Shown here: positions 6,841-25,167 of the stretch, piece after piece
Position numbering within the stretch: position 1 is the first letter of the stretch
Layout of the letters: each line of letters begins with the position of its first letter
Source: an uncultured cyanobacterium
GTDB lineage: Bacteria > Cyanobacteriota > Cyanobacteriia > PCC-6307 > Cyanobiaceae
Reading direction: 5' to 3'
Length of the DNA stretch: 32,481 bases
NCBI GenBank assembly: GCA_903858015.1
Contig: CAIOGZ010000026.1
Span: 1 to 32,481, forward strand
The notes under the pieces: model-generated
What the model saw: the letters and a program-made list of their open reading frames with translations, nothing else
What the model was told of the DNA's origin: nothing
Database searches by the model: none
Program-made: the position numbers and the translations under genes

Positions 6841-8652
6841 ATGCCGCGACCGAATCCGCCGCCCTGCCAGGAGGGCAGCAGCGCCAGCGCTTCCGGCGCC
6901 GTTCCCGCCAGCCCCCGGGCCAGCTCCGAGGCCAGCCCCGCCGCCTGTTCCGGGGCCACAGCCACAGCTTCTGCCCTTGGAGCTGCCCCTGCAGCTGCCC
7001 CTGCTTCTGCCGCCACCGCGACCAAGCGCTGGGCACCCAACATGCCCGGCACGATCACCCGTGGCCTCAGTGCCCTGCTTGGCGTTGATGCACCCACCGC
7101 CATGCGGATCGCCCTCCTGTATGGCGACATCGAATGGCTGGCGGCCGGTGCCGGCGAGCTCCGCTATTCGGCCAGTGATTACGCCAGGCGGCAGGGGATG
7201 CATCGCAACACGGTCCATGCCGATCTGCACCGGCTGGCGGCCATCGGCGCCATCCAGCTCGGCTGCGATCGCGCCAACAGCGCCACCATCGTCCTGCGCG
7301 GTTTGCTGCCCCCAGCCAGCGTTGCGGCTTCCCATGTTGACCAAAGCAGCGACCCTTGCCCTGCGGAGCAGCAACCCCCTTGCTTACCCGAGCAGCAACC
7401 CCTTGCTGCCCGTAGCAGCAACCCTTGCCTGCGTGAGCAGCAACCCCCTTGCCTCTCTGAGCAGCAACCCCTTGCTGCCCGTAGCAGCAACCCCTTGCTG
7501 CCGGTAGCAGCAACATTAGAAAAGAGAATTAAAATTCTAGAAAAAAAGAAGAAGAGCAAGAAGGCAAGCCAGGAGCAGGAGCCACTGCAAACCAGCCCTG
7601 GCAGCCAGCAGCAACCGCCAAGCCCAACTTCCAGGGAGCAAGGGCCCAGAGCCTTGGAGCCAAGCGGCTTGGAGCCAACCCCCTGGGAAGCAAAGCCCCC
7701 CGGTGCAGCAGCCCCAGACCCCAGGGTTCCAGAGCCCAGGGCTCCAGACCCACAGGCTCCAGACCCAGCCCCCTTCAGGGCCAAGGCCAACCCCTCCACA
7801 GCCCAGGAGCCAAGCACCAGCCCTAATCCCCGCCCCGAGGCGCTGCTTTCCTCCGCCACCGAGCCTGGTGGCCAACCCACCAGCAGCAGCCCCGAGCCAG
7901 GCGCCCTCCTGGCGGAGTTGCTGGCCACCTTCCGCAGCGCCGCCCCAGCCGAATGGCCGCTGCCCCGGCAGCTCACCCTCACCGCTGGCCGCCGCGCCAA
8001 GTTGCAGGCGGCCTTAGCCCATGCCGGCGGCCCCGAGGCTTTGCACCAGCAGCTGCGGACGGCCCTGGAGCAGGTGCCGCCCTGGTTTCGCAGCACCTAC
8101 CCCACCCGACCCGATGGCAGCCGGCGGCCATCGCACCAGTTTTTCGACCTGCTGTTTCGCGCCGCCGCCGCAGAGCGCGATGGCGGCCCGGAGGCCTGGC
8201 ATGTCTTTGCCTGGAGTGAGGCTGGCGGCCAGCCGCCCAGCCCTGGCGTCGCCCTGCCCCCAGGCGGCGCCGAAAGCGACGGGCAGCGGGCCCAGCGGCT
8301 CTTCTGCTGGGGCGGCTCCCACTGGCTGATGCGCGAGATCGAGGCCCTCCAGCTCCCCCTGGCCGAACGCCGCCGCCTCACCGCCCTGCTGGAGAGCGGC
8401 GGCCAGGGCACCGCCGGCGCCGGCGCCCTTCAGTTCGCCGACCCAACCCCTGCAACAGCCGCCAGCACCCTCCAGGCGGCCCCAGAGGCGGCCTGTACCC
8501 GGTCAGATAGGGAATCCATGCCCTATGCCACTTCTGATGGCCCAGAGGCGCTCCTGGGCGCTTCTGCCGGCACGCGGCGGGCGGCTCGATCGCGCCATCG
8601 GGGCGCCTTAGCCCCTGGGGTACCACCACCCAGGGCTTGCCTGCAGCGCTGA
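6841..8652 (+). CDS. Putative replication initiator with winged-helix N-terminus and internal iterons
   Basis: 603 aa. After an Ala/Pro-rich leader, residues about 68-160 look like a winged helix-turn-helix: MRIALLYGDIEWLA, then YSASDYARRQGMHRNTVHAD, then LHRLAAIGAIQL. A Gln/Pro/Ser-rich middle (170-380) includes a Lys-rich stretch EKKKKSKKA. A folded C-terminal part (about 380-520) has PRQLTLTAGRRAKLQAAL and FDLLFRAAAAERDGG. It is followed by a DnaB-like helicase and a DnaG-like primase, the gene order expected of an initiator that loads helicase. Iteron-like repeats and an AT-rich tract lie inside its own coding sequence (7345-7563). The start could also be the Met at residue 68. Initiator function is inferred from architecture and context, not from a strong family match. 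Confidence 0.6.
   Translation: MPRPNPPPCQEGSSASASGAVPASPRASSEASPAACSGATATASALGAAPAAAPASAATATKRWAPNMPGTITRGLSALLGVDAPTAMRIALLYGDIEWLAAGAGELRYSASDYARRQGMHRNTVHADLHRLAAIGAIQLGCDRANSATIVLRGLLPPASVAASHVDQSSDPCPAEQQPPCLPEQQPLAARSSNPCLREQQPPCLSEQQPLAARSSNPLLPVAATLEKRIKILEKKKKSKKASQEQEPLQTSPGSQQQPPSPTSREQGPRALEPSGLEPTPWEAKPPGAAAPDPRVPEPRAPDPQAPDPAPFRAKANPSTAQEPSTSPNPRPEALLSSATEPGGQPTSSSPEPGALLAELLATFRSAAPAEWPLPRQLTLTAGRRAKLQAALAHAGGPEALHQQLRTALEQVPPWFRSTYPTRPDGSRRPSHQFFDLLFRAAAAERDGGPEAWHVFAWSEAGGQPPSPGVALPPGGAESDGQRAQRLFCWGGSHWLMREIEALQLPLAERRRLTALLESGGQGTAGAGALQFADPTPATAASTLQAAPEAACTRSDRESMPYATSDGPEALLGASAGTRRAARSRHRGALAPGVPPPRACLQR
7345..7514 (+). repeat. Eight iteron-like repeats (22-24 bp period)
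   Basis: The core AGCAGCAACCCCTTGC, with minor variants, starts at 7345, 7367, 7391, 7414, 7436, 7460, 7483 and 7506 (the last is a partial AGCAGCAAC). Spacings are 22, 24, 23, 22, 24, 23 and 23 bases. The first three units (7345-7413) and the next three (7414-7482) form a duplicated 69-bp block. Single units are not multiples of three, so the same DNA is read in all three frames (EQQP, RSSNP, VAAT). That suggests the DNA sequence and not the peptide is what is kept. The array abuts an AT-rich tract. Confidence 0.8.
7515..7563. other. AT-rich tract, candidate DNA unwinding element
   Basis: Immediately after the last iteron the sequence becomes A/T-rich and purine-biased, with an AGAATT-aa-AATTCT dyad at 7525-7538 and an A-run at 7541-7547, in an otherwise very GC-rich gene. 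Iterons beside an easily melted tract inside an initiator gene match the organisation of lambda-type origins. Origin activity is an inference. Confidence 0.5.
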
Positions 8653-8742
8653 ACCGCCGAGCGCGACACGAGCCAGCGGGGCTGTCTGCGCCGACCAGTG
8701 CCCCTCCACCCCCATCGCCACCCCACGTCACCCTCTCCAGCC

Positions 8743-10698
8743 ATGGCCAATCCCCAGCCCCATCAGCGGGGCCCCTCGCCGAAATCCGCCATCGCCAGAG
8801 CGCCGGCTACGGGCCAGCAGCTGCGGCGCTCCAGCCGCTGCACGGCGCAGCCCGTTAGCCCTGGTGCAGTTGCAGCCGTCCCAGTTGCAGCGCAACCAGT
8901 TGCGGAGCTTGCCGCAGCGGCGGATGCGGGTGTAGTGGATCCAGCTGCAGTTAGTGCAGCTTTGCTTAGCCCAGCAATGGCAAGTCCTGCTGCGGTGAAT
9001 CCCTCTGTGACGATCCAGGCTTCGGCTACTCCCGTTGCGGCCAGTTCCATTGCGCCCGCCCCGAACCTGCCGCCGCAGCCGTGGCTGGATGCCGTGATCC
9101 GCCAGGGCGATCACATCGACACTCCCCGTGGGCCCCTGCCGGTGCCACCCATTGAGTTGCGGCCTCTGGCGTCGCCATCAACCCAAGCTGGCGCTGACCT
9201 GCTTCTGCACGAAAACGATCTCCTCGCCGCCGTGCTCGCCGCAGGCGAGGACCACAGCGCCCGCTGGGGCCTGTTTCGGCGGCGTATGGGGTTGCGCTAC
9301 AACGAGGCCGTACCCGAATCGCTTTGGAGCACTGCCGAACTGCGGCTGGTGGCAGGCGAGATCGATGCCATCTTTCGCGGCCGGCGCGATGTGCATGCGA
9401 TCAATGCCCAAGCAATTCGCCATGACCTACGCGAACGGGCCGCAGCCGGCCGCTGGAGGGGCAATCTGCAGGCGATCGAGGAAACCCTGGCCGATCTGAT
9501 CGATTGGGGCAAGGCCGCCTCGGCCCTTGATTTCCCGATCGCCTGCGACATCTTCCAGGCCGCCAAAGCCCGCCAACTCTTCTATCCAGCCGTCGAACGC
9601 CTGCTGGCCCGCCGGGGCCGTGATCGCCCGATCGCCGCCGAACTGCAGGAATGCCGCGACGCCCTCAATGAAGCCCAGTCCCTGGCCTGCGGTCGCCTGC
9701 GCCAAAGCCAGCCGGTGCTCTCCGCCCGCCACACCGCCCACCAGTGCCTGGCCCTGGCCTCGATGCCGCTGGAACTGCGCCCCAAGCCGATCTCCACCGG
9801 CATCCCCTCGTTTGATCTGGACATGCGCGGCGGCGTTATCCCCGGCCAGGGGGAGGGCACCTGGGTGCTGGCGGCGCGCTCCGGCGTCGGCAAAACCACC
9901 GTCGCGATCGCCGCCGCCATGGGGCTGGCCTTTAACGGCGCCTCGCTGCTGTTCCTGTCCTGTGAACTCAGCCGCCAGGCGATCCTGGCGCGGCTGATGG
10001 CCAACTACTGCCGCCGGGCGCTGGGCATGGCCACGCCGCTGTACTCCACCGACGACCTGGAGGGCCGGGGCCGGCTGATCACTGCGGACGACTTCGCTCG
10101 CCTCGAGCGCTGGCACGAATCCTTCCAGGCCGGCTGCCAGCCCGACGGCAAGCCGATGGGGGAGCTGTTGTACGAGTCGCGCTTTGGCGCCTCCGTTGAG
10201 GAGGTCTGCGAGCTGGTGGAAGACACCAAATCCGCCCATCCGGCCCTGGCGGTGGTGGTGCTCGACCACTTCCACGCCATGGGGGCCAGCCCCGGCTACG
10301 GCTCCAACACGACTGCCGAACTGGCCGCCCGCGCCATGGCGCTCAAGGCGCTGGCCGGCCGCTGTGACCTCGATATTTTGATCGTTGCCCAGCTGAACCG
10401 GGGCGCCTACGGATCCAGCACAGGCCCCGATGTATCGCACTTAGCCGGTACTTCGGAGCTGGAGCGCTATGCCTCCGCTGTGTGGCTGATCGATCGCCCC
10501 AAACCCGGCGACGGACCGCCACCGGCCAAGGGGGTGCTGGAGGTGCACCACGGCAAGTTCCGCCACGGCCAGCCGTCGGAGTTGGACCTCTCGCGCACCG
10601 TGATCCGCATCGACCGCGCCCACTGCTACCTGGAGGCCGACGAGGCGCGGCTCGCCTTCTGCGGCCACCAGCTCTACCCCGGCGTCGAGGTGCCATGA
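8743..10698 (+). CDS. DnaB-like replicative helicase
   Basis: 651 aa from the ATG at 8743; an upstream in-frame start at 8698 is less likely. Residues 1-110 are Ala/Val/Pro-rich low complexity. A helical region at about 150-330 takes the place of the DnaB N-terminal domain. The RecA-like motor follows: Walker A ARSGVGKTT (about 378-386), LLFLSCELSRQAI corresponding to the SLEMS motif of DnaB, Walker B ALAVVVLDHFHAMG, and the DnaB-typical ILIVAQLNRG, then HHGKFRHG. It would unwind the replication fork as a hexamer. Its stop codon overlaps the primase start as ATGA, so the two are translationally coupled. It is longer than chromosomal DnaB (about 450-480 aa) and is most likely an element-encoded paralogue. 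Confidence 0.85.
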   Translation: MANPQPHQRGPSPKSAIARAPATGQQLRRSSRCTAQPVSPGAVAAVPVAAQPVAELAAAADAGVVDPAAVSAALLSPAMASPAAVNPSVTIQASATPVAASSIAPAPNLPPQPWLDAVIRQGDHIDTPRGPLPVPPIELRPLASPSTQAGADLLLHENDLLAAVLAAGEDHSARWGLFRRRMGLRYNEAVPESLWSTAELRLVAGEIDAIFRGRRDVHAINAQAIRHDLRERAAAGRWRGNLQAIEETLADLIDWGKAASALDFPIACDIFQAAKARQLFYPAVERLLARRGRDRPIAAELQECRDALNEAQSLACGRLRQSQPVLSARHTAHQCLALASMPLELRPKPISTGIPSFDLDMRGGVIPGQGEGTWVLAARSGVGKTTVAIAAAMGLAFNGASLLFLSCELSRQAILARLMANYCRRALGMATPLYSTDDLEGRGRLITADDFARLERWHESFQAGCQPDGKPMGELLYESRFGASVEEVCELVEDTKSAHPALAVVVLDHFHAMGASPGYGSNTTAELAARAMALKALAGRCDLDILIVAQLNRGAYGSSTGPDVSHLAGTSELERYASAVWLIDRPKPGDGPPPAKGVLEVHHGKFRHGQPSELDLSRTVIRIDRAHCYLEADEARLAFCGHQLYPGVEVP

Positions 10699-12464
10699 GC
10701 AGCGCACCTCCCGGCCCTGGGCCCGATGCCAAGCCAGCGGCCGGCGCCGCCAGCAACCAGCCGCCCACCCCGCCGCCCCGCAGCCTGCGGGCCGCTGCTG
10801 CTGCGCCACGGCACCACAGCCACCCCGGCCCTGGGCGCCGCAGTGCTTTGCCCGCTTCCCTGATCGAGGCGGTGCGCAGCCAGGCCCGCATCGCCGATCT
10901 ATTTCCACTTGCGGAGCTGCGCCGCTCCGGCAGCGGCTTCCTCGCCACCTGTCCCTGGCACCAAGACCGCCGGCCCTCGCTGACGGTCAACCCCGAGCGC
11001 AACCGGGTGCATTGCTTCGTGTGCAATCGGGGCGCCGATCCGATCGATTGGCTGCAGGACAGGCAGGGCCTGTCGTTCCTTGAGGCCGTGGAGGAGTTGG
11101 CCCGCCGTTATGCGATCCCCCTGCCGGAGCAGGATCCTGAGGCCGCCGCCAGGGCCGAGGCCGAGCACCAGGAACGGCAGCGGTTACGCCAGTGGCGCAG
11201 CCAGCAGGAAGAAGACTTCCACCAGGCGTTACTGGCCGATCTGCAGGCTTTTGGCCCCGCCGCCAGTTACCTGGAGCAGCGCGGCGTCAACCCCGAAACC
11301 GCCATCGCCTGGCGCCTTGGCCTCAATGCCCAGCGCTTGATGCTGCCGATCCGCGATGGCCAGGGCGGCTGCTGTGGCTTCTCAGGGCGCTCGATTACTA
11401 ATCAAGAGCCCAAGTACCGCAACAGCTCCGCCGATTTGCTGTTCCAAAAATCGCAGCTGCTGTTCGGCTTGCACCAAGCCGCCGCCGCGATCCAAAGCAG
11501 CGGCGAGGCGTTGCTGGTGGAGGGCCCCCTCGATGTGATCCAGCTGCACCAAGCCGGATTGACGAACGCCATCGCCCCCCTCGGCACCAGCCTCTCGATC
11601 GAGCAACTGCAGCTGTTGCAGCGCCGCGGTACCCGCCGCCTGTTGGTCGCCTTTGATGGCGACGCCGCCGGCAGCAACGCCACCGGCCGCCTGATCGCGG
11701 AGCTGCGTTCGGCCGTGATCGGCACCGGGCTGGAGCTGGCGGTGGTGGACCTCCCCAGCGGCAGCGATCCCGATGGCTTCATCCGCAGCCAAGGCCCCGA
11801 CGCCCTGCGCCGCCTCAGCCACCAAGCCCGCCACTGGCTGCACTGGGAGCTGGATCAACTCCTGGCCCCCCTGATCGCCGACGGCAACAACTTGACCGTG
11901 CTGCAGCGCTGCGAGGCCGAGGCCAAGCAGCTGCTGGCCGTCTTACCCCAAGGGGCCCTACGGGAGCGGGCGGAGCGGCGCCTGCAGGAGGCCCTGGGGG
12001 TTGTGCCCCAGCTACAGCAAGGGGCGCAACGTCATCGGGGCAAGGGGCCAGCCGGAGGACGGCACCGGGAGCTCCAACCAGCGCCCAGCTCAGCGGCATC
12101 ACCACCACCCGCCCATGGCGACGCTGCACAGATCGAACGGGCCGAATACCGGGCTTTGCGCCTGTTCCTCTGCAGTCCCGTCTGCCGCGATCCCCTGGCG
12201 GTGCTCGTCATCCGCAACGACCTCTACCGCCGTGCCCAGCAATGTCTCGTGCAGCTCCATCAACGCCTGCCAGGCCCGATCAGCAGCGCCCAAGACGACC
12301 CCCTACCCAGGGCCGTGCTCGCCATGACCGATCAACTGGAGCCCCACCTAGCCCAACTCCTGGAGCGCCTCTGCAGCCTCGATCCAGGCGTCAGGGACAC
12401 GTTGTTTCGCGCGCCCGAGGGGGAGATGATGGCGATTTTGGATGTGCTGGAGCCGGTGGGGTGA
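10695..12464 (+). CDS. DnaG-like primase (CHC2 zinc finger plus TOPRIM)
   Basis: 589 aa, starting at the ATG that overlaps the helicase stop (ATGA at 10695-10698). A Pro/Ala-rich leader is followed by the CHC2 zinc finger C86-P-W-H89 ... C107-F-V-C110 with the RRPSLTVNPE signature. The TOPRIM core then has LLVEGPLDVI (Glu about 276) and LVAFDGDAAG (Asp about 321 and 323). These are the metal-binding and catalytic elements of bacterial primases that make RNA primers. The C-terminal roughly 200 residues diverge and include a low-complexity stretch at about 430-480. It is paired with the DnaB-like helicase and is convergent with the DGR, ending 190 bases from the template repeat. Confidence 0.9.
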   Translation: MSSAPPGPGPDAKPAAGAASNQPPTPPPRSLRAAAAAPRHHSHPGPGRRSALPASLIEAVRSQARIADLFPLAELRRSGSGFLATCPWHQDRRPSLTVNPERNRVHCFVCNRGADPIDWLQDRQGLSFLEAVEELARRYAIPLPEQDPEAAARAEAEHQERQRLRQWRSQQEEDFHQALLADLQAFGPAASYLEQRGVNPETAIAWRLGLNAQRLMLPIRDGQGGCCGFSGRSITNQEPKYRNSSADLLFQKSQLLFGLHQAAAAIQSSGEALLVEGPLDVIQLHQAGLTNAIAPLGTSLSIEQLQLLQRRGTRRLLVAFDGDAAGSNATGRLIAELRSAVIGTGLELAVVDLPSGSDPDGFIRSQGPDALRRLSHQARHWLHWELDQLLAPLIADGNNLTVLQRCEAEAKQLLAVLPQGALRERAERRLQEALGVVPQLQQGAQRHRGKGPAGGRHRELQPAPSSAASPPPAHGDAAQIERAEYRALRLFLCSPVCRDPLAVLVIRNDLYRRAQQCLVQLHQRLPGPISSAQDDPLPRAVLAMTDQLEPHLAQLLERLCSLDPGVRDTLFRAPEGEMMAILDVLEPVG

Positions 12465-12654
12465 TTGGGGAGTGAAAGCCCACCAGGCAACCCAGGTCTG
12501 GGGCCGTGGGGCAGTGGGCCGGGGATGTGCGGATCGTGCTGTCGCTGGCTCGGGGCAGGCCTTGCCAGCGGGGGTCGCCGATCACCGGAGCAGGTTTGGA
12601 CCCTTCTTGCACTCCCGCTGGAATCCCTCCCAACGGTTCTGACGGTGAAGGGTG

Positions 12655-12780
12655 CTGGGGGGAGGAGACAGCAGGGGCGAACGCCGATATTGGTATTGAC
12701 GTTGGCCGGGTGGTTGCTGTTCCGGTTGGCGGCGCGGCAGTTGTGAGGTTCGTTGAACCAAGAACCGCCGCGCAGCAGCT
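12655..12780 (-). repeat. DGR template repeat (TR)
   Basis: This 126-bp stretch is a near copy of 14442-14567 (VR). It begins 24 bases past the reverse transcriptase stop and lies on the same strand. The two copies are identical at 113 positions. All 13 differences fall where the minus strand of TR has A. Read in the target's frame, TR encodes Asn-rich AAY codons (WFNEPHN, NRNSNHPANVNTN), typical of templates designed to vary at adenines. The last 36 bases toward 12655 match VR perfectly and probably contain the initiation-of-mutagenic-homing region. It should be transcribed as a non-coding template RNA. Confidence 0.95.
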
Positions 12781-12804
12781 GGGCAACCTGCCCACATGGC
12801 AACT

Positions 12805-13893
12805 TTAGGGCAGTAGGGGAGACAAGTCGGCGCAGAACCGATGCGAACTGAACAAGCGCTGGCGCAATCGGATGGTGTGGCCTTGGGCCAGATGGGCATT
12901 CCAGCTCTGGGCCGAACGTCGGGCCCGTTCGACGCTGAGCCGCCGCTGAAGCAGGGCTTGATGGCAGCGCCTCAGCCCCCGGCGAATGCGGAGCAGGCTG
13001 TGGTTGCGCACGCGGATCCTGCCGCCGATGACGTGAAAGCCCACAAAGCTGGCTCCACGGGCAAGCGAAACTAGTCGCGTTTTGCTGGGGTGTAGACGCA
13101 GGCGCAAGGCGGCCAGTTCGCCATGCAGACACAGCAGTGCTTGATGGAGCGGCTCTGGCCGATCTGCGAAGACAGCCAGATCATCGACGTAGCGAAGGCT
13201 CACCCTCACTCCTGGGAGGTTTTTGAGCCGGTGGTCGAGGCCATCCAAGTGGAAGTTGGCCAGGAATTGGCTGGTGAGATTGCCGATGGGCAGGCCCCTG
13301 GGGCGCTCCAACGAAGTGAATAGGTTATCGCCGGGGAAGCATTCGATGGGCGAGCCGTGAATGGCACCGTTGGCCAGGCTGCGATCGAGCAGCCAAAGGG
13401 TGCCAGAGCAAGCGATCACCTCCTTCAGCTGGCCCATCAGCAGACGATGGTCAATGCTTGGGAAATAAAGCCGGATATCGGCCTGGAGCAGCCAACGGTG
13501 TTCACGGCAGGCGCGGCAAAAGCGGCGCAGAGCGCGATGGGAGCCATAGCCCCGGCGGTTGGCGTAGCTGGTGGGGAGAAAGCGGCGCTCGAGCGGTGGG
13601 GCGATCACCGCAATCAGGGCGTGGTGCACCACCCGATCGCGGAAGGGGGCAGCGCTCACCAGGCGTGGTTTGGGCTCGCGCACCAGGAACTGCCGGTAGG
13701 GACCTGGGGCGTAAGTAAAGCTCTGCAGCTCCTGCTGCAGCTGGAACAGTTCGGCCTCCAGGTTGGCCGCAAAGGCGAGCACATCGGGGCGGTAGCGCTT
13801 GCCCTTGCTTGCCTTGCGGTAAGCAGCGAGCAGGGTGGGGAAGCTGGTGATGCGGGGATAGAGATGCCGCAGCGGCGGTGGGGGCTTGGCCAT
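12805..13893 (-). CDS. DGR reverse transcriptase
   Basis: 362 aa from the ATG at 13891-13893, 10 bases past the avd stop. Retroelement RT motifs are present in order: QADIRLYFPSID with catalytic D139; the DGR-specific GLPIGNLTSQFLANF (G204-x3-SQ209, in place of the QGxxxSP of group II intron RTs); and LRYVDDLAVF with D237 and D238. The thumb-side GASFVGFHV follows. Length is typical of DGR RTs (about 300-400 aa) and no endonuclease or maturase domain is attached. It would copy the TR RNA into cDNA with errors at adenines, and the cDNA would then replace VR. An in-frame extension to 14013 overlaps avd and is unlikely to be the start. Confidence 0.95.
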   Translation of the reverse strand: MAKPPPPLRHLYPRITSFPTLLAAYRKASKGKRYRPDVLAFAANLEAELFQLQQELQSFTYAPGPYRQFLVREPKPRLVSAAPFRDRVVHHALIAVIAPPLERRFLPTSYANRRGYGSHRALRRFCRACREHRWLLQADIRLYFPSIDHRLLMGQLKEVIACSGTLWLLDRSLANGAIHGSPIECFPGDNLFTSLERPRGLPIGNLTSQFLANFHLDGLDHRLKNLPGVRVSLRYVDDLAVFADRPEPLHQALLCLHGELAALRLRLHPSKTRLVSLARGASFVGFHVIGGRIRVRNHSLLRIRRGLRRCHQALLQRRLSVERARRSAQSWNAHLAQGHTIRLRQRLFSSHRFCADLSPLLP

Positions 13894-13903
13894 CCGACGA
13901 GGC

Positions 13904-14278
13904 TCAGGCCGGAGCGGCCGTCTGGCCCTGGCGCCGCTGCTGGCTGATCCAGCCACCGAGCTGTCGACCCACCTCCTCCACCAGACGGGCCACATGCTCG
14001 TAGCGGCGATCATCGATCAACTGAAAGTTGTGCAACAAGCGGATCTGCAGGCGCAGCAAATCGAGGCGAGCGTTGAGGGGTTCGAGGCGCTCCAGTTTGG
14101 CGGTGGCATAGCGTGCGGCCACCAGGCCCTCCAGTAGGTCGTAGAGGCCCTGCACCAGGCGATCGCCGAGGGCAAAGCGGTGATCGCGGGGCAGGCGGTT
14201 GAGCAGGGGCACGAACCACTGGATCAGATCCATGGTGGCCTGGATGATCGGCAGTTCGCCGCGGCTGGGGGTACTCAT
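13904..14278 (-). CDS. avd: DGR accessory variability determinant (Avd-like)
   Basis: 124 aa from ATG 14276-14278. It is small, helical and basic, with the Avd/four-helix-bundle look: MDLIQWFVPLLNRLPRDHRF, LGDRLVQGLYDLLEGLVAARY, LRLQIRLLHNFQLID, and RRYEHVARLVEEVGRQLGGW. In known DGRs Avd forms a pentameric barrel that binds the reverse transcriptase and template RNA and is needed for mutagenic retrohoming. It sits between the target gene and the RT on one strand, with only 10 bases to the RT start. The 143-base gap upstream, to the target's stop, has no other gene. Confidence 0.9.
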   Translation of the reverse strand: MSTPSRGELPIIQATMDLIQWFVPLLNRLPRDHRFALGDRLVQGLYDLLEGLVAARYATAKLERLEPLNARLDLLRLQIRLLHNFQLIDDRRYEHVARLVEEVGRQLGGWISQQRRQGQTAAPA

Positions 14279-14421
14279 TGAGGCAGAAGATCCAACATTG
14301 GAGGGGAGGCAAAAAAATCGAGGCGCCTGCGGCGCCATAGCCTCCAGCCAAACAGCCGGACAGCCCCCAATCCAACAGCCAGGGCAAAACAAAACAGCCC
14401 AAGGGCAAAGGGACCAAGGGC

Positions 14422-17400
14422 TCAAGGACCAAGAAGGGAGCCTGGGGGGAGGAGACAGCAGGGGCGAACGCCGATATAGGTACTGACGCCGGCCGGGTGG
14501 TCGCAGTACCGGTTGGCGGCGCGGCAGCTGAGAGGAGCGCCGAACCAAGAACCGCCGCGCAGCAGCTTCAGCTCCTTCTGGGCCGTTCCCAGGGCCTCCA
14601 GGGCAGGATCCACCCCCTGCCAAGGCAGGCCAGCGCTGGACCAGCCCTCTGCCGTCGGGTCGGGATGCCACTGGTCGCCGCACCACTCGTACAGCTGACC
14701 GTGCATCTCGGCCAGGCCCCAGCGGTTCACCAGACCAAAGAAGCCCACCGGAACCGGCCGCTGGCGGTAGGCACCCTTGCGGCCTGGGCCATAGGTGTAG
14801 CCGCCGTCGTAATTCGCCCAGCTGGCATCCAGTGTGTCACCGAAGTGGAAGGGTGTACCCGCCCCAGCTCGGCAGGCCGACTCCCACTGGCCCTCGCCTG
14901 GCAGCGCTAGTTGGGGAGAATCCCCCTGCCCCCCCAGCTCGCTCCACTGCTCCAGAAGCCAGCGGTTCAGACGGCCCAGCCATTCCTGGCAGTCGTTCCA
15001 GCTGACGCTGTCCACCGGCAGGCCGCCGGGCTGGGCAAATCGTTCCCAGAGGTCGTCCGGCTTGTAGCTGCCGGTAGTGGTGGAGTTCAGCTCTCTCGCC
15101 ACCTGCGGCAGCTCCACCACCGCCCGCCACTGGGCTTGGCTGATCGGGTGGCGGGCCAGCGCGAACCGCTCCAGCCGCACGCTGCGTTCCGCTTCCACGT
15201 TCACGCCCTTGCAGCCTTCGCGCTGGTTGGCGTACCAGTCGCGGCCCTCCTCCATTTCCGGTGAGCCAATGCCGGCCTCGCCGCCTTCCACCACCACCAG
15301 CTCCAGCTGCTCGCCTCCAGGCAGCGGCAGCCGCCACACCGCTGGCGTCACCACCTCCGTGCGGATGCGCAGGGCCTCGCCCTCCTGCAGGGCGGTGAGG
15401 GTGAGCATCGGCACTCGCATTTCCCGGTCGCTGCCAAGAAGGGGCAGATCCGCAGACGCCGCCAACTGCAACCCCCAGGAGGCTCCCTGGAGCGGCGGCA
15501 GGCGCCGATCGTGCTCAGCCCAGCCCGCCTCGTCCTCCACCAGCAGATCGAGCGCGTCGGCGCGCAGCTGCTGCTCAAGTCGCAGCATCAGCTCCTTGCG
15601 AGCCGTCGCCTGCGTGCCTTCCCGCAGCCCCGCGACCGCAAGCCCCAGGGCCTGCAGCGCCGTGCGGCGCAGCGCACTTGGCGCTTCCCCCGCCTCCGCT
15701 ACCGCCGCCAGCAGCAGCGCGGAGTCCTCTCCCCCAAGGCAAGAGAGGGCAACGGCGGCCGCCTCACGGGCGGTCGAGTCCTGTTGCTCGCTGGCCAGAA
15801 CACGCCCCAGAGCCGCGATCACCCCGCCGTCGCAGCGACGGCGGCGGCAGATCTCTTCTATGGCCTGCAGCCGCACCGGCAGCTCCGGCTCCGAAAGATC
15901 GTCGATCAAACGCTGCAGGCGTCGCTTCTCCCGCTCCTGGAGGATCTCCTCCTGGTTGATCGAGGCCCGCTCCGCCAGCTGCGCCACCAGCTGCGGCGGC
16001 ACCTCCAGCCCCAGCACCGCCCGATCGGCCGCATGCACGGCGCTGTCGTACAAAGCCCGCAGAAATCCCTGAGCCAAAGCTGCCCCCTCACTGCCCGGCG
16101 CCGGCAGGGTCTGGGCCAGAAACTCTTGCCAAGCGTCCCCGCCGGCCCGATCGAGCTGGCGCAACCATCCCAGTGCCGCCAGATAGTCGGCCAGCGGATC
16201 AAGCACCAAGCACAGGCTCTGGCCATCGCGCATGAGCTGCACCAGCATCAACCGGTGCACCAGATACTTCAGCAACTCCCCACCGTTGTTGGGCTGCACG
16301 CTTTGCTCCGATCCCTCGGTGCCGTCCATTTCGGCGCTAGCTCGCGCCAAGGCCGCTAAAGCGATCTGTCGCTGCACCGGTCCCGGCCGAAACAGCTTCG
16401 TCTCACTGCACTGGGACAGATGCTGCAGTGCCCGCACCACGAGCTCCGGGGGCTGCCGCTGCGGCTCATCGATGGCGCCATTGATCTGTCGCACGTAGGT
16501 GAGCATCAATGCCGGTACCGACGCCGGCAACAGGGATTCACCGGTCCCGCGCCGCTCGGCAAGCACCACATCGATATAAAGCTTGGCGAGAAGCACCGTG
16601 ATGGCCTGCTGCTCATCGACAATGCCCGCCGTGATCTCCCGCAAGCGGCTCACCGCCCGCTCGTGCAGGTCAAAATCGAGGGCCTCCTCTGCCCCCTCCA
16701 GCCGCAGGTAATCGCTAAAGAAAGGCCAGAGCCGATCCGCCGTCAGCCGCTGCGGCCGCAAATGCATCATCCCCTTCCCCCCGAAGCTCTCCTCCCGCCG
16801 CGAGGTCACAATCACCCAGGCGGAAGGGAAGTCGTCGGCAGTGGGGAGCAGCCGCCGCCGGCTCTCATCCCCTAGCTCGGAGAAGTGATCGAGGATCACC
16901 AAAAGCCGGCGCCGCTCCAACAGCGCCCGCACCATCGACAGGGTGGGTGGCGGCGTTCCGCGCTCAGGGCCCCGCGGTTCGCTCAGGCTCTGCAAGGAGC
17001 TACGCAGCCGACTGAGCAGCGATTCCTCCCCCTGCAGATCAGCCTCCACCAACACCGGCACCACGGGATATCCGGTGAGCTTCCGCTCCAGCGCCCAGCT
17101 GGCGATCTGCACGGCAAGGCTCGTCTTGCCCACACCGCCCTCGCCGCTGATCAGCACTAATCCCCCCACAACCCCCAGATCCTTGAGACGCTCGGGGGTA
17201 AGTTCGGGCTCCATCCTCGAGCCCACCTGCACCGGCAAGCCCAGATGGTGGCGACGCTGCTGCACCGTGGGGATTTTAAAAAACTCCTTTTCAATCCCGG
17301 TCCGATGCTCCGCCACCCAGGCATCCAGTACCTGCGGGCGCTGCTTGATCGCTTGGATCAACCCAGGTCCTAGAGGCAGTTTGCCTTCCTTAACTCCAGG

Positions 17401-17877
17401 CAGAGGTAAAGGTAGTTGGAATCCCTCATCGGGCAACCGCAGTAGCCAGATAGGGCGCTTCCAGAGCACCAACCGATATGTGATCCAGAGCAGCAACCGA
17501 TATGTGATCCAGAGCAGCAGCAGGCCACTGAAGGTCCCAGACCAGGAATTAATCCAGGGATAAATGTTTTCCAAGCTGCCATTGGGGCGTTCGCGAGGCT
17601 TACCGGAGCTGCTGGCGCTGGCTGGCTTGTCGGCGGGCGGCTGGACAGAAGGCTTGACAGGGGAGGGCTGGACGGAGGTTGGCGGTTGGGTGAGAGGAGC
17701 GCCTGGCTTGACGGGCTGGGATGCACCAGGCGCTCCAGGGTTGCCCTGCCCTACGGCGGGTTCAATCGCTCCTGCCACGGCAAGGGCCAGGAGGGCTCCC
17801 AGTCCATGGGAGAGGCGCAAACCCTGATGTCCTGGGGCTTGGGCCTGATCCACGTTCGGGTAGCGAATGGGGCTCAT
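14422..17877 (-). CDS. DGR target: membrane-anchored NACHT/STAND NTPase with HEAT-like repeats and FGE-type variable domain
   Basis: 1151 aa from ATG 17875-17877; a GTG at 17997 would add 40 Gly/Ala-rich residues. Order of parts: hydrophobic segment about 25-43 (signal or anchor); Pro/Ser-rich linker about 50-100; hydrophobic segment about 117-138 with a duplicated LLWITYRL; NTPase with Walker A GEGGVGKTS (245-253), Walker B LLVILDHF (325-332) and VIVTSRR (355-361); helical region with HEAT-like repeats about 654-745; FGE-sulfatase/C-type-lectin-fold domain from about 845. FGE signatures include VSWNDCQEWL, LPGEGQWESACRAG, GLAEMHGQLYEWCGD and LLRGGSWF. Ten residues in the final 40 differ from the TR-encoded version. 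It is probably a signalling receptor that switches on ligand binding by the diversified C-terminus. The ligand and the effector output are unknown. Confidence 0.9.
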   Translation of the reverse strand: MSPIRYPNVDQAQAPGHQGLRLSHGLGALLALAVAGAIEPAVGQGNPGAPGASQPVKPGAPLTQPPTSVQPSPVKPSVQPPADKPASASSSGKPRERPNGSLENIYPWINSWSGTFSGLLLLWITYRLLLWITYRLVLWKRPIWLLRLPDEGFQLPLPLPGVKEGKLPLGPGLIQAIKQRPQVLDAWVAEHRTGIEKEFFKIPTVQQRRHHLGLPVQVGSRMEPELTPERLKDLGVVGGLVLISGEGGVGKTSLAVQIASWALERKLTGYPVVPVLVEADLQGEESLLSRLRSSLQSLSEPRGPERGTPPPTLSMVRALLERRRLLVILDHFSELGDESRRRLLPTADDFPSAWVIVTSRREESFGGKGMMHLRPQRLTADRLWPFFSDYLRLEGAEEALDFDLHERAVSRLREITAGIVDEQQAITVLLAKLYIDVVLAERRGTGESLLPASVPALMLTYVRQINGAIDEPQRQPPELVVRALQHLSQCSETKLFRPGPVQRQIALAALARASAEMDGTEGSEQSVQPNNGGELLKYLVHRLMLVQLMRDGQSLCLVLDPLADYLAALGWLRQLDRAGGDAWQEFLAQTLPAPGSEGAALAQGFLRALYDSAVHAADRAVLGLEVPPQLVAQLAERASINQEEILQEREKRRLQRLIDDLSEPELPVRLQAIEEICRRRRCDGGVIAALGRVLASEQQDSTAREAAAVALSCLGGEDSALLLAAVAEAGEAPSALRRTALQALGLAVAGLREGTQATARKELMLRLEQQLRADALDLLVEDEAGWAEHDRRLPPLQGASWGLQLAASADLPLLGSDREMRVPMLTLTALQEGEALRIRTEVVTPAVWRLPLPGGEQLELVVVEGGEAGIGSPEMEEGRDWYANQREGCKGVNVEAERSVRLERFALARHPISQAQWRAVVELPQVARELNSTTTGSYKPDDLWERFAQPGGLPVDSVSWNDCQEWLGRLNRWLLEQWSELGGQGDSPQLALPGEGQWESACRAGAGTPFHFGDTLDASWANYDGGYTYGPGRKGAYRQRPVPVGFFGLVNRWGLAEMHGQLYEWCGDQWHPDPTAEGWSSAGLPWQGVDPALEALGTAQKELKLLRGGSWFGAPLSCRAANRYCDHPAGVSTYIGVRPCCLLPPGSLLGP
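14442..14567 (-). repeat. DGR variable repeat (VR)
   Basis: These are the 126 bp at the 3' end of the target gene that align to TR at 12655-12780. The copies differ at 13 sites. In coding-strand terms all are A in TR: seven A-to-G, five A-to-T and one A-to-C. They change ten residues (1113, 1114, 1116, 1117, 1124-1126, 1130, 1132, 1134): N-G, E-A, H-L, N-S, N-Y, S-C, N-D, N-G, N-S and N-Y. No change makes a stop, and TR AAY codons cannot mutate to one. The repeat ends 20 bases before the stop codon. Confidence 0.95.
17471..17518 (-). repeat. Perfect 24-bp tandem duplication in the target gene
   Basis: Two adjacent identical 24-bp units (17471-17494 and 17495-17518) encode a repeated octapeptide LLWITYRL in the second hydrophobic segment of the DGR target. 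Being exact and in frame, it looks recent and may vary in copy number between strains, changing the length of the membrane segment. Confidence 0.9.
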
Positions 17878-17968
17878 TATCGCGAAGCCATTTGCTCTGT
17901 CCGCCCAGGTTCCTCCAGTCCCCTGGGTAGCCTCCCCCGCTGCCCCCACCCCGGCAGCCCCCGCTGCC

Positions 17969-18214
17969 ATGCCCAACCCCAACCCCTGGCTCACCACCGA
18001 GCAGCTCTGCGCCCAGCTTGCGATCAGCCGCTCAACGGAGACTGCCGACGCCTACGTTCTCCTGCACCACGACACCGGCACCGCCCTCTACGCCACCAGC
18101 GCCACCGAGGCCGAGATCCACAGGGCCAATGCCAACCTCAGGCAATCGGGGAACCGCAACCGCTATGTGGCGGCAAGGCACCTGCCGCACCAACGGGGGG
18201 ATGGGCAGAGTTGA
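17969..18214 (+). CDS. Small protein with partial helix-turn-helix start
   Basis: 81 aa, MPNPNPWLTTEQLCAQLAIS onward. The LTTEQLCAQLAISRST stretch resembles the first helices of a MerR/excisionase-type helix-turn-helix, but the usual wing (for example LRQLRLRGVLSPGKHYRR in the gene at 21356) is replaced by ETADAYVLLHHDTGTALYAT. It therefore looks like a fusion or a different fold. It is divergent from the DGR target gene, with 91 bases between the two ATGs, so both promoters may lie in 17878-17968. The function is unknown. Confidence 0.5.
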   Translation: MPNPNPWLTTEQLCAQLAISRSTETADAYVLLHHDTGTALYATSATEAEIHRANANLRQSGNRNRYVAARHLPHQRGDGQS

Positions 18215-19110: not shown

Positions 19111-20388
19111 GTGCCGAAGACCACCCCCGCCCCCCGACAAGCACGAGCAGCGAAAGACCGTGGCTGGGTAGCAGCTCTGCGGCTTTCGTTGACATCAGAC
19201 CTCGGGCCTCGTAGTGGCTGGACTGTGTCAGAAATGCGCGGACGTGTTCTCCTCAATGTCTCCGCTTCAGCCGCGGGGGGTGCCCGTCAGCAGCGGGTGC
19301 TCCCCTTCGATTGGTCCGCATCCGATAGGCAGGCGATTCATACCGCAGTGCTTGCTATCCATGCTGATTTCAATGATGGTGTCCCCCTTGACCTCGCTAT
19401 CGAAACTCATGCGCGAGTTCCTTCAACGGAATCAAGCTCCATTGGAGTCACCGTTAGTGAGGCAATCAATTGGTCACAGCTGATTCAGGGCTTCAAGGAT
19501 CACAAACTGAGTAGTGGAGCCATCAAGCAGAGCACCTGGGATGATATGTATTGGCGGCGAATGTCTGTGATTCTCGATGCCATTGGTGGCAAGCGGCGAC
19601 CGACCTCATCCAAGCAACTTCTGGAGGCCGTGATCGAGTCATGGAAGGACAGACCAGGATCTCGTGGCCGTCAGCTGCAGGTTCAATTCACAGCAGCGCT
19701 TTTGCGTTGGGGCGTCGATTCGGAGCGGCTGCCGTCATCCTGGGCACCCCCACTTGATCTCTCGATCTACGTTGGTCGAAAGCGTGATGAACGAGGAGTC
19801 ACAACTCCGATTGATGTCAGCCACGTGCTCGACCTGGTACAGGCAATATCCGATCCGCGCTGGCGATTGGCGTTTCAGCTGATGGCTGCCTACGGCCTCC
19901 GTCCAGAAGAACTGCAACACCTGGAGATTCAAAAAGGGCAGCTCTGGACGACCTATCAGAAAGTTTCCAGTCGGGGGCGCACCCGCTCAAGAGTCCTGCG
20001 ACTGTTGCCTTGCGACAACTGGGCACAGGAATGGCAGCTCGAGAAAGCATTTCGACCTGACCGTATGCCGCCGATGCGACCAGGTCATGGGGCTGAGGAC
20101 CTTGGGACTTACATGCGGCGTCGACCGCTCTGGCAACAGCTACGGCGGGAGTACGAAGAGAAGGGCGAAAAGCTGGTCCTCTATTCCTGCCGCCATGGTT
20201 ATGCCCACCGCGCTCATGTCACTTGCGAGCTTCCGCCCAAGGTGGTTGCTGCAGCCATGGGTCACTCAGTAGAAACCCACCTGGCTGCCTACAGTCGCTG
20301 GTGCGGGGATGACGTTGTGGATGACGCCTTCGCCAAGGCGGAGCAACGGCTGGCCCATGGCCACCGAGCTCAGAGCTCAGCGGCGTAA
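19111..20388 (+). CDS. int: Tyrosine recombinase/integrase
   Basis: 425 aa from a GTG at 19111. A core-binding helical domain (about 115-210, for example WSQLIQGFKDHKL) precedes the catalytic domain. Active-site residues can be placed: Arg264 in AYGLRPEELQ, Arg361 in YSCRHGYAHR, His384 in MGHSVETH and the nucleophile Tyr394 in LAAYSRW. The first His of the usual HxxR box is Tyr358 here, a tolerated variation. The enzyme would catalyse site-specific integration and excision at the adjacent tRNA-Pro site. The N-terminal roughly 65 residues (WTVSEMRGRVLLNVS and so on) resemble a small arm-binding or AP2-like module. Codon use is less GC-biased than that of its neighbours. Confidence 0.9.
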   Translation: MPKTTPAPRQARAAKDRGWVAALRLSLTSDLGPRSGWTVSEMRGRVLLNVSASAAGGARQQRVLPFDWSASDRQAIHTAVLAIHADFNDGVPLDLAIETHARVPSTESSSIGVTVSEAINWSQLIQGFKDHKLSSGAIKQSTWDDMYWRRMSVILDAIGGKRRPTSSKQLLEAVIESWKDRPGSRGRQLQVQFTAALLRWGVDSERLPSSWAPPLDLSIYVGRKRDERGVTTPIDVSHVLDLVQAISDPRWRLAFQLMAAYGLRPEELQHLEIQKGQLWTTYQKVSSRGRTRSRVLRLLPCDNWAQEWQLEKAFRPDRMPPMRPGHGAEDLGTYMRRRPLWQQLRREYEEKGEKLVLYSCRHGYAHRAHVTCELPPKVVAAAMGHSVETHLAAYSRWCGDDVVDDAFAKAEQRLAHGHRAQSSAA

Positions 20389-20559
20389 TGCCGCAGGGCC
20401 TGCGAGAACCTGCTCAAGCGTTGCCAGATATTCATCGACTGTCTTGGTTGGGTTTCTGAGGCTGGCCCGGGCGCTACTCCATCGCCATGCAGAGGTGGCT
20501 GGCTTGTGAGCTCAGTGGGTCGCGGTGATGGTTGCTCACGCCAGCTGTAGAGAGGCGTC

Positions 20560-20982
20560 TCAGTTCAGCGCCGGCGTCAGGCCCAGGACCTTTGCGGCTT
20601 GCTGCATTCGCATATCGAAGCTGGCCAGCCGGGTGCAGCGGCTGTGCAGCGCTACGGCCAGATGCAAGGCGTCACCGGCCCGTAGACCGAGTGCTGGATC
20701 CTGGAGCAGCTCGGCTGCCTGGCGAAACCGGTCGCGATCGAGCGAGCGCAGTTCCACTCCGCCCTGCAGCAGGCGCTCAAACTGCTCCCCAGCGGCCTGG
20801 CGCGCCGATGAACTGAGGCCGTGATGGCGCTGCTTGATTCCCAGGGCGCTGTGGGTTTCGGTGATCAGCCAGTCGCTGCTGATCAGGGGGTCCCGAGATT
20901 GAGCAAACCAGTCGAGGGCTTGGGCACTGCGTTCTTCCGGGGTGAGCAGAGCGACCACCACGCTGGTGTCGAGATAGATCAT
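20560..20982 (-). CDS. vapC: VapC-family PIN-domain toxin
   Basis: 140 aa from ATG 20980-20982 (MIYLDTSVVVALL). PIN-domain acidic residues are all present: D5 in YLDTS, E42 in LITETHSAL, D104 in LRAGDALHLAVA and D123 in LASFDMRM. VapC toxins are Mg-dependent RNases, often cutting tRNA or rRNA. The gene lies 13 bases after the stop of the antitoxin gene. It is convergent with the integrase, with 171 bases (20389-20559) between them that contain no gene. It probably stabilises the integrated element. Confidence 0.9.
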   Translation of the reverse strand: MIYLDTSVVVALLTPEERSAQALDWFAQSRDPLISSDWLITETHSALGIKQRHHGLSSSARQAAGEQFERLLQGGVELRSLDRDRFRQAAELLQDPALGLRAGDALHLAVALHSRCTRLASFDMRMQQAAKVLGLTPALN

Positions 20983-20995
20983 CGATGGGTGAGCG

Positions 20996-21331
20996 TCACC
21001 AGCGTTCACCGCCGCGGCATTCCTCAATCACCGAAGGGGTGAGCGGCATGGTGGCCTGCAGCTGGCGCAGATCCGTGGCCAGGGCAGAGCGATCCAGCTT
21101 GCGCAGAGGCTCCAGGCTCAGGCGGCCATCAGGACCAACGACGATGTCGATCTGATCGCCTTCCTGCAGTCCGGCCTGACGCAGGCAATCGGCCGGGAGT
21201 CTGACCGCCAGGCTGTTCCCCCAGCGGCGGATCGCCTGCGGGAAGTGCTGGCTGGCGTCAGCTGAGCGATCTTGAGGCCTGGACTGTGTCAAGGAACGCC
21301 TTCGACCGTTCACGGCCACCTGTAGAGACAT
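20996..21331 (-). CDS. vapB: AbrB/MazE-fold antitoxin (VapB-like)
   Basis: 111 aa from the ATG at 21329-21331. The SpoVT-AbrB swapped-hairpin is seen at about 33-78: AIRRWGNSLAVRLPADCLRQ, GLQEGDQIDIVV, and GRLSLEPL. The C-terminal tail (about 80-111) would wrap the VapC toxin. The first 32 residues have no counterpart in typical antitoxins, which start right at the AbrB domain, so a later non-ATG start is possible. A palindrome covers the annotated start codon (21322-21339), consistent with autoregulation by the VapBC complex. Confidence 0.85.
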   Translation of the reverse strand: MSLQVAVNGRRRSLTQSRPQDRSADASQHFPQAIRRWGNSLAVRLPADCLRQAGLQEGDQIDIVVGPDGRLSLEPLRKLDRSALATDLRQLQATMPLTPSVIEECRGGERW

Positions 21332-21339
21332 GACTCTAC
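21322..21339. promoter_or_regulatory. Palindromic operator candidate for vapBC
   Basis: GTAGAG-acatga-CTCTAC is an 18-bp dyad with perfect 6-bp arms and a CATG centre, sitting over the vapB ATG. AbrB-type antitoxins bind such symmetric sites to repress their own operon. The half-site CTGTAGAGA (21320-21328) recurs at 20544-20552, just beyond the 3' end of vapC. Confidence 0.5.
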
Positions 21340-21355
21340 GTCCGCTTTATGGATT

Positions 21356-21601
21356 TCAGTGCTGCAGATGCCGCCGACTCCACCCCGTGATGGTGGCCTC
21401 CACGTTTTCCAGATGCCACTGCAGGGGGCCCCGGCCCTGGGTGCAGCCCCAGCGGCGGTAGTGCTTGCCTGGGGATAGCACCCCCCGGAGCCGCAGCTGG
21501 CGGAGGGTTTCGCGGCTCATCCCCAGAGCAGCGCAGGCTTCTGCCGTTGTGACCCAAACGCGGTGACGTCCGGATGGGGGTGGGGTCGTCTGGTTCTCCA
21601 T
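21356..21601 (-). CDS. Small helix-turn-helix DNA-binding protein
   Basis: 81 aa from ATG 21599-21601. WVTTAEACAALGMSRETLRQ and LRLRGVLSPGKHYRRWG form a MerR/Xis-type helix-turn-helix with a basic wing. It is related in signature to the gene at 18326. The ATG overlaps the stop of the antirepressor gene by one base (TGATG), so the two are translationally coupled in the element's minus-strand operon. It is likely a phage-type regulator or excisionase. Confidence 0.75.
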   Translation of the reverse strand: MENQTTPPPSGRHRVWVTTAEACAALGMSRETLRQLRLRGVLSPGKHYRRWGCTQGRGPLQWHLENVEATITGWSRRHLQH

Positions 21602-22389
21602 CAGGCCAGCTCCCGGAGAACGCTGACCACGGCGGGATTCCAGAGGATCTGGTACCCGCTGTGGCCGCCGCGGCAATAGGGCAGGGCTTCTGCCCAATGC
21701 AGGCCGGCATTGGTGAGCTCCCATTCCCCACGCTGATTGCGGATCTGCAGCCCGCAGGCTGCGAGGTGCTGGTTCGTGTCCTTGGCCTTCATCCCCAACA
21801 GCTGCCCGAGTCCCGTGGCATTGAGCGAGCAGATCGGGGCCTCTGCTGCCGGCAGGGCTCGCCGCAGGGTTTCGGTCGCCAGGCCGGTGTTTTCCTGAAT
21901 GCAGGTGAGCGTCGCGGCCATGGCGATGCCGGGTTTCACGCCGGGGACCTGGGCGACGGCCTGACCAATCAGCAAAAGGGCGCCGACGCTGTCTTGCTTG
22001 TCTGAGGGCAAGGATGGCGGCGCAGGCGCGAGCCCTGGTAATGCGTAGCGCCCAGTCCGGCGGATCGCAGGCAGAACCTCGTGCGTCACCCAACGCTTGA
22101 AGCGCTTGGCCTCTGGCTTGCGGCTGCCGAGGACCAAGGTGTAGAGCCCAGGTTCGTTGATCAGGTTCAGGCTCGGCGGCCCGCCTGCTGGGGCACCCTC
22201 ATTTGAAATGAGGGTCTTCTCGTCCCCGTCCAGACGGCTGAGTGCCTGGCTGACGTTGCCGATGCCGAGGGTTGAGCAGACATCTGCGGCGACAAACCAG
22301 GGATCACCCTGCTCATCGGTGAAGACGCGGATCTGGCTGCCTTCGAAGTCAAAGGGGACAAGGAAGCCTGAGGAGGTCGTGGTGTTCAT
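21601..22389 (-). CDS. BRO-N domain phage antirepressor
   Basis: 262 aa. The N-terminal BRO domain spans about 10-115: FDFEGSQIRVFTDEQGDPWF, VAADVCSTLGIGNVSQALSR, EPGLYTLVLGSRKPEAKRFK, and RWVTHEVLPAIRRTGRY. These are diagnostic motifs of phage/virus BRO and Ant-type proteins. The C-terminal part (about 185-260) looks like a KilA-C/ANT-type DNA-binding region: LNATGLGQLLGMKAKDTN, then LQIRNQRGEWELTNAG. Such proteins inactivate or compete with repressors in the lysis-lysogeny decision. The start overlaps the stop of the preceding gene (ATGA). Confidence 0.9.
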   Translation of the reverse strand: MNTTTSSGFLVPFDFEGSQIRVFTDEQGDPWFVAADVCSTLGIGNVSQALSRLDGDEKTLISNEGAPAGGPPSLNLINEPGLYTLVLGSRKPEAKRFKRWVTHEVLPAIRRTGRYALPGLAPAPPSLPSDKQDSVGALLLIGQAVAQVPGVKPGIAMAATLTCIQENTGLATETLRRALPAAEAPICSLNATGLGQLLGMKAKDTNQHLAACGLQIRNQRGEWELTNAGLHWAEALPYCRGGHSGYQILWNPAVVSVLRELA

Positions 22390-22691
22390 CGGTCTGAAAG
22401 AGGTGTGACGGGTGGGAGCTCAGCGGCGTCAGTGCCGGCATCGGAGCGGAAGACGGTGTTGGTGCTGCTCACTGGCCGCGGCGGAACGGGCCCGGCGAGC
22501 ACGAGCAGCAGGGTGCTGAGCTGAAATGCCAGCCCCAGCAGCACCAGGCCACGCAACCCGACGAGGCTGCTGGCTGTGACCGCGACGGTGGGCCGGCGGG
22601 TGCGGCAGAAAGCAGGCAGCTGGGGACCGGGCCGGTGCGGGGGCCTGCCGCTCCAGGCCCCGGAGTTGATGCCCTGACGATCGAGCGGCAT
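22386..22691 (-). CDS. Small single-pass membrane protein, unknown
   Basis: 101 aa from ATG 22689-22691, which overlaps the ssDNA-binding gene stop (TGATG). The start of the antirepressor overlaps its own stop (ATGA). One hydrophobic helix (about 47-67, LRGLVLLGLAFQLSTLLLVL) is flanked by a basic Pro-rich N-terminus and an acidic C-terminus. I recognise no family. Tight overlaps on both sides argue that it is translated within the phage operon. Confidence 0.6.
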   Translation of the reverse strand: MPLDRQGINSGAWSGRPPHRPGPQLPAFCRTRRPTVAVTASSLVGLRGLVLLGLAFQLSTLLLVLAGPVPPRPVSSTNTVFRSDAGTDAAELPPVTPLSDR

Positions 22692-24277: not shown

Positions 24278-24280
24278 GAC

Positions 24281-24315
24281 GGATCGGATCGGGCGGTTGC
24301 CCGCTGATCCGGATC
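24281..24315 (-). promoter_or_regulatory. Leader hairpin upstream of the annealing gene
   Basis: An imperfect inverted repeat (GGATCGGATCGGGC at 24281-24294 against GCCCGCTGATCCGGATC at 24299-24315) ends three bases before the ATG on the transcribed strand. A second 6-bp stem (AGCCGC/GCGGCT, 24334-24352) lies just upstream. Either could sequester the start site or serve as an operator. Confidence 0.35.
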
Positions 24316-25120: not shown

Positions 25121-25167
25121 ACGGCAAACTTGGCACTCCTAGTCACTTCCTGACACGTCCTGGCATA

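Follow-up and report, generated by a model that had tools for sequence, protein, structure and literature searches.

The stretch analysed here, referred to as the window, covers positions 1 to 32,481 (32,481 nt) of contig CAIOGZ010000026.1 in assembly GCA_903858015.1, an uncultured member of the Cyanobiaceae whose genome lies near Cyanobium sp. and cyanobacterial metagenome-assembled genomes. Between 12.6 and 18.0 kb it carries a complete diversity-generating retroelement (DGR), in which the target gene with its variable repeat (VR), the accessory gene avd, the reverse transcriptase (RT) gene, and the template repeat (TR) follow one another on the minus strand:

14422 to 17997, minus strand: target gene, 1191 aa, with an NB-ARC/NACHT region at residues 279-430 and an FGE-sulfatase domain at residues 899-1178 that holds the VR
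14442 to 14567, minus strand: VR at the 3' end of the target gene, 126 nt, 13 mismatches to the TR
14322 to 14336, minus strand: GGCGCC-GCA-GGCGCC hairpin, 105 nt past the VR, predicted target tag or terminator
13904 to 14278, minus strand: avd, 124 aa (NF033474, 121.8 bits against a cut-off of 80; PF22296; phrog_3206)
12805 to 13893, minus strand: DGR RT, 362 aa (RVT_1; motifs GNLTSQ and YVDD; tree)
12655 to 12780, minus strand: TR, 126 nt, from the repeat comparison with the VR
12577 to 12660, minus strand: TR 3' RNA element, predicted RT-Avd handle (model R1; covariation on 31 copies)

A sequence-only reading of the window had described a complete DGR, and both the anatomy and the grouping of its RT with DGR RTs support this description. 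On re-comparison, the coordinates of the two 126-nt repeats proved exact and the reported counts were reproduced: all 13 differences between TR and VR fall on an A of the minus-strand TR (7 A>G, 5 A>T, and 1 A>C), and the TR holds 25 A, 21 of them between 12691 and 12754. The hypergeometric probability of 13/13 mismatches at A is 3e-11, in agreement with the claim that the pattern is beyond chance. The order of avd, RT, and TR behind the target on one strand was likewise borne out, for avd by NF033474, and the RT keeps both motifs ascribed to it. Of the 25 A, 23 occupy codon position 1 or 2, and a stop codon is reachable by A>N from no TR codon. Over their final 36 nt, which are GC-rich, TR and VR do not differ, and the check for the initiation of mutagenic homing site (IMH/IMH*) showed the two diverging directly past CCCCCCAG. 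The window DGR is a normal one and is probably active.

In the tree, the window RT shares one clade with 19 cyanobacterial RTs and the brt product of phage BPP-1 (21 rows; support 99/98; BPP-1 on a long branch), and 10 other cyanobacterial RTs fall apart from it. The position outside the DGR clade that the sequence-only reading had named as telling against its proposal is thus not the one found. The best solved relative is 8ub7 (E 7e-43), which we take to be the BPP-1 DGR RT complex; identity to BPP-1 brt is 34% over 93%. Other RT classes were rejected on the tree and on scores below cut-off, namely, group II intron RTs (121 bits against 300), DRT RTs (Drt3a, 44 against 200), and retron RTs (St85, 37 against 235). 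PADLOC gave no match for the target or Avd.

Above the Pfam cut-offs, the target matches FGE-sulfatase (103.7 bits) and, at residues 279-430, AAA_22, NB-ARC, and NACHT. A profile of its FGE domain matches variable protein 1 of Treponema denticola (2y3c, E 1.8e-5), and by these FGE-sulfatase and 2y3c matches the VR lies at the 3' end of a target with a lectin-like fold. AlphaFold models of the VR domain from 16 and 64 sequences reached a mean predicted local distance difference test (pLDDT) value of 51.7 and 58.1, with the VR below 50, and are too poor to show the fold. Searching with the VR-domain protein returned 421 homologues, and most of the 120 listed lie on short metagenome contigs. Variation was counted on an alignment of 63 metagenomic and genomic relatives, using the closest 23 with the window protein as reference. 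Residues of A-bearing codons differ in 267/322 cells (83%) and the interleaved VR residues in 26/618 (4%); the upstream domain differs in 922/5957. This is the comparison with relatives or reads proposed by the sequence-only reading, run here at the protein level, and such natural variants lend indirect support to mutagenic retrohoming. In the 19 of 23 relatives with at most one other VR change, A>N reaches 251 of 266 A-codon residues, and 11 of the 15 that it cannot reach sit at a single codon, ATC, for which we infer AAC in other TRs. Perhaps the rewritten lectin-like face of this NACHT/NB-ARC protein senses changing ligands, maybe those of invaders; the idea rests on the domain make-up of the target and on an argument in PMC10907252 (this and the other papers are cited from the parts available to us).

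Being limited to the window, the sequence-only reading had no sight of three things found elsewhere in the genome: dead DGR copies, a remote VR, and a TR that lacks an RT and has six VRs. In what follows, G000 denotes the source genome, C26 the window contig, and other G numbers other genomes. The TR search of the source genome hit 14 places and the target search gave 22 matches. RT searches found one intact RT, the full-length RVT_1 protein on C26, and two wrecks, on C18 and C1; Avd was found on C26 and C18. On C1, deletions have fused avd and RT and removed the catalytic core, leaving residues 22-50 and 265-358 of the RT only, and the TR and its 3' flank are intact. This TR is matched by six VRs on four contigs (two each on C1 and C20, one each on C27 and C95) with non-A changes at 0/94 sites in each (0/564 in all) and with 14, 16, 19, 17, 16, and 16 of 27 A sites changed (P 3e-16 to 3e-11). 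Compared pairwise, the six agree at 6-16/27 A sites and at 94/94 non-A sites in 15/15 pairs; the 500 nt upstream of them are 67-71% identical in 14 of 15 pairs and 89% identical in one.

We therefore consider it probable that the RT-Avd pair of C26, which includes the sole intact RT found in the genome, also reverse-transcribes template RNAs of loci whose own RT has been lost. Were the window DGR instead an ordinary cis-acting one, the likeness of the other repeats would have to stem from gene conversion among paralogues, for which the 22 FGE-domain matches offer ample partners. Conversion would not scramble the A sites yet spare exactly the non-A sites, and we regard this explanation as hardly credible; the A-only pattern rejects chance and gene conversion alike as the source of the likeness. 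At one A of the C1 TR, within GTCGGATTCC, 6/6 VRs carry T (e.g., L041 9911-10031, G000:C1:29911), and this A-to-T site may indicate where the transferred cDNA ends on its 3' side.

Two further loci of the source genome deserve description. On C18 the RT stops at the catalytic motif, running into the tail of a TR, and a second avd above the family cut-off adjoins this truncated fusion (L040 5305-6337); the region also has three VRs of the C18 type that still share one non-A frame, and their TR is lost. On C95, a remote VR differs from the window TR at 13 A and 3 non-A sites (3/100) and fits the TR adjoining it worse (14 A and 11 non-A). That orphan TR has no well-matching VR in the genome, the best showing 11/101, 14/101, 14/100, and 18/101 non-A changes. 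The C95 target (L039 11326-14835) is chimeric: its body resembles genes beside RT-less TRs of relatives and its VR now agrees with the window TR, as a switch of templates would produce.

Across the genus, an intact RT adjoins 10 of 22 copies of the TR 3' element and none lies beside the other 12, of which 7 keep a full-length TR. These are G000:C1 and six cassettes of one TR type (G000:C95, G001:C83, G024:C111:989, G029:C13, G030:C85, and G037:C75), each of the six adjoining a gene that encodes an FGE domain and whose open frame spans 516-1470 aa. The VRs of four of the seven (G000:C1, G037:C75, G001:C83, and G024:C111) have 0-2 non-A mismatches. Specifically, changes affect 12/21 A and 0/104 non-A sites at G037:C75; 13/24 A and 0/101 non-A as well as 5/25 A and 1/101 non-A sites at G001:C83; and 13/23 A and 2/102 non-A as well as 19/23 A and 2/102 non-A sites at G024:C111. 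In another family, G065:C13 shows 10/28 A and 1/98 non-A changes on a contig without an RT match. VRs of RT-linked TRs in the genus have 0-4 non-A changes, with the exception of G025:C9:52040 at 7/89; VR decay is therefore not special to loci without an RT. Among TRs of the same type from six species, 4/22 A columns and 21/90 non-A columns are variable, so that their differences are mostly non-A. When 10 neighbours of RT-less cassettes were scanned against PHROGs, none was named as an integrase.

The recurrence of the pattern also bears on the notion of another intact DGR RT, absent from the assembly or present in a co-occurring strain. The assembly consists of 100 contigs, with several targets close to contig ends, and intact and broken variants are described as coexisting in Thiohalocapsa (PMC10907252). 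The genome is, however, 99.93% complete with 0.74% contamination. An assembly collapse at C1 can be dismissed, as the break lies within its contig and the RT remnant there is no more than 53% identical to the C26 RT; moreover, the pattern is repeated at the contig-internal loci G037:C75 (82-kb contig) and G065:C13 (44-kb contig). We hold a hidden RT to be quite improbable.

The flank 3' of the TR is conserved across the TR loci of the source genome and of its relatives. Model R1 of this flank found 22 copies in 9/42 genomes of the genus and 12 copies in 6/7 genomes of other families, the latter chosen for a similar RT. The element comprises a stem, ACCCTTC/GAAGGGT (ACTCTTC/GAAGAGT in distant copies), and a 9-bp hairpin; this outer stem is absent from the search model. 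Over 31 copies, 95.9% of cells are paired and covariation is 0.440 versus 0.205 in shuffles (0/500), although the counts on alignment A2 lean towards the 9-bp hairpin because A2 was fitted to a structure containing it. At gathering cut-offs, Rfam gave no match in the window, the 3' element included; two matches below threshold, both with animal RNAs and located over the TR, were dismissed. In BPP-1, a spacer RNA recruits bRT-Avd (PMC12875486), and by analogy the 3' element may be the handle bound by RT-Avd. Units resembling AAGGGTCACAGACCC, from none to several, stand between the two structural halves of the element (L039 10891-11003, 9246-9374) and form a small minisatellite within this putative functional RNA.

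A second candidate signal lies behind the VRs. In the source genome, GGCGCCNNNGGCGCCTCG has 11 matches, 11/11 directly past a VR, against 0 in the control. Over eight genomes, a GGCGCC hairpin occurs within 320 nt of 38/46 VRs and 0/15 TRs, with a 6-bp stem, mostly a 3-nt loop, and a distance of 47-198 nt past the VR. This survey took in only VRs with a GCTGCTGCG-type start, so that G025:C9:52040, the RT-linked case with 7/89, falls outside it. A scan rates the window hairpin as terminator-like, and the hairpin could be a terminator instead of a target tag. Outside G000, non-A changes in RT-less cassettes of the one type number 0-2 in the three that carry the hairpin and 7 and 9 in the two that do not; two C20 VRs and G037:C94 have no perfect hairpin, yet 0 non-A changes. 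The link between hairpin loss and VR decay is no more than suggestive (based on 31 of 46 VRs, the 15 left out having no matching TR among those for their genome; Fisher P 0.004 at a post hoc threshold, Mann-Whitney P 0.13).

Taken as one mechanism, the 3' element of a template RNA would be bound by RT-Avd, and the A-mutated cDNA would home in trans, with the downstream hairpin marking the VRs that it enters. TR and 3' element would then form a portable cassette needing no RT of its own, and one RT-Avd pair would serve several template RNAs with a common handle and many VRs with a common tag. The main rival to such use in trans is recent RT loss: RT-less TRs would be relics of DGRs that each worked in cis, and the window DGR would serve its own VR and perhaps that on C95. 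The RT wrecks on C1 and C18 agree with this, as do the degenerate loci known from Thiohalocapsa, for two of which diversification before the disruption was allowed for (PMC10907252). Several observations weigh against use in trans, those on the C1 remnant and on the decayed VRs also in favour of relics. The C1 remnant has no stop codon, and its omega (dN/dS) against three intact relatives is 0.12, 0.16, and 0.32, those relatives giving 0.16-0.24 among themselves. As the remnant shows no clear relaxation, the loss may be recent; dating it by dN/dS is indecisive and leans, if at all, towards relics. VRs are decayed at three of the seven RT-less full-length TRs (G029:C13, G030:C85, and G000:C95; non-A changes 7/102, 9/103, and 11/101), and a seventh C1-type VR, on C27, has 8/94. 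G065:C20, on a contig without an RT match, is intermediate, with 4/96, 4/96, and, in a gapped third copy, 9/141. At G001 and G024 an RT whose own TR is broken lies about 4-5 kb off on the same contig, too near the TR to count as action in trans between loci. The TR remnant beside the G001 RT is without the 3' element, and the presence of the element beside TRs outside the source genome is partly by construction, since most of these were located through the element itself.

Simple relics would nevertheless be hard to reconcile with the absence of non-A changes from all six C1-type VRs over their four contigs. Likewise, the one TR type is distant from an RT in 6/6 genomes having it, yet three keep 0-2 non-A changes; its hairpin-bearing cassettes are A-only or nearly so, in contrast to the hairpin-less ones; and the same pattern recurs in another family (G065). 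On balance, recent RT loss appears unlikely to account for the data. Beyond the use of RT-less templates in trans, we lean, with reserve, towards a wider view of the DGRs of these cyanobacteria as split systems, in which a single RT-Avd pair would mutate targets throughout the genome on behalf of satellites that lack an RT. Each satellite would consist of a target gene bearing the VR hairpin and of a template RNA carrying the 3' recognition element; such satellites would be served in trans and would spread, diverge independently, and persist across species and families. The 3' element would then represent a new RNA family and a portable address for A-directed mutagenesis.

If use in trans holds, one mutator would diversify at least eight sensor-like genes; a bacterium with a single enzyme for many templates could vary its set of sensor genes simultaneously and acquire targets without new enzymes. 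As DGRs are usually sought around the RT gene, RT-less template-target cassettes are missed by design. The 3' RNA element and the VR hairpin offer short, concrete signals for testing how DGRs choose template and target, and would be convenient components for directed evolution in laboratory strains.

The DGR of BPP-1 (mtd, avd, TR, brt) shares RT, Avd, TR, a lectin-like target with the VR at its 3' end, and A-directed change with the system described here, as well as an RNA stretch 3' of the TR (from its annotation and PMC12875486) and a hairpin past the VR (PMC3240598). Its order is avd-TR-spacer-brt, whereas the order here is avd-RT-TR-element, which keeps the RNA element clear of the RT gene. 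Searched with R1, BPP-1 gave no match (best score 7.3 bits, E 0.98), and the BPP-1 target is a tail fibre, not a NACHT/NB-ARC protein. The window hairpin, with its 3-nt GCA loop 105 nt off, differs from the 4-nt GRNA loop at 4-34 bp of phage DGRs (PMC3240598); that phage type was not found here and is a trait of phage-related DGRs, not of all.

The network of Thiohalocapsa PB-PSB1 (Dore 2024, PMC10907252) likewise has several DGR loci, degenerate RT-less copies, STAND NTPase targets, and remote VRs identical to a TR at every non-A site, for which action in trans was proposed. The six C1-type VRs show the same full non-A match. In Thiohalocapsa, each class keeps one complete locus whose TR and RT act in trans, whereas the C1 TR adjoins a gutted RT and is the template for six VRs, and TR types here have an RNA element in common. 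Vallota-Eastman 2020 (PMC7517822) described DGRs of cyanobacteria whose several remote VRs lie in genes with lectin domains, and reported that Synechococcus and Prochlorococcus have no DGRs; by contrast, the DGRs described here belong to a related picocyanobacterial genus. The available parts of that paper do not mention RT-less TRs. DGRs with several VRs or TRs are known from Yan 2019 (PMC6642488), where 271/948 had several VRs and about one-fifth of these more than one TR; the parts at hand do not treat RT-distant TRs or an RNA element uniting TRs. Whereas the idea that a TR with an RT beside it serves remote VRs in trans was thus put forward earlier (PMC10907252), we recognised no report of RT-less TRs used in trans in the literature searched, which did not extend to preprints and supplements. 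What we did not find earlier in that literature is a set of TRs from several species that have a dead or absent RT, retain A-only VRs, and are united by a common RNA element.

Phage-like replication genes flank the DGR at 6841-12464 and 19111-30749:

8698 to 10698: DnaB-like helicase, a phage-like replication gene beside the DGR
10482 to 12464: DnaG-like primase, a phage-like replication gene beside the DGR
19111 to 20388: integrase (phrog_1)
20996 to 21331: MazE-like antitoxin
21601 to 22389: BRO-N protein
26261 to 27694: helicase
28008 to 30749: second primase

The regions around the DGR look like one or two mobile elements. A 603-aa frame at 6841-8652, with no Pfam or PHROGs match, contains tandem units of about 23 nt (CCCCTTGCTGCCCGTAGCAGCAA) at 7331-7514. 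Minus-strand frames within 3162-5417 encode a LuxR-type domain (3162-4049) and a sigma-70 region 2 (4299-5417).

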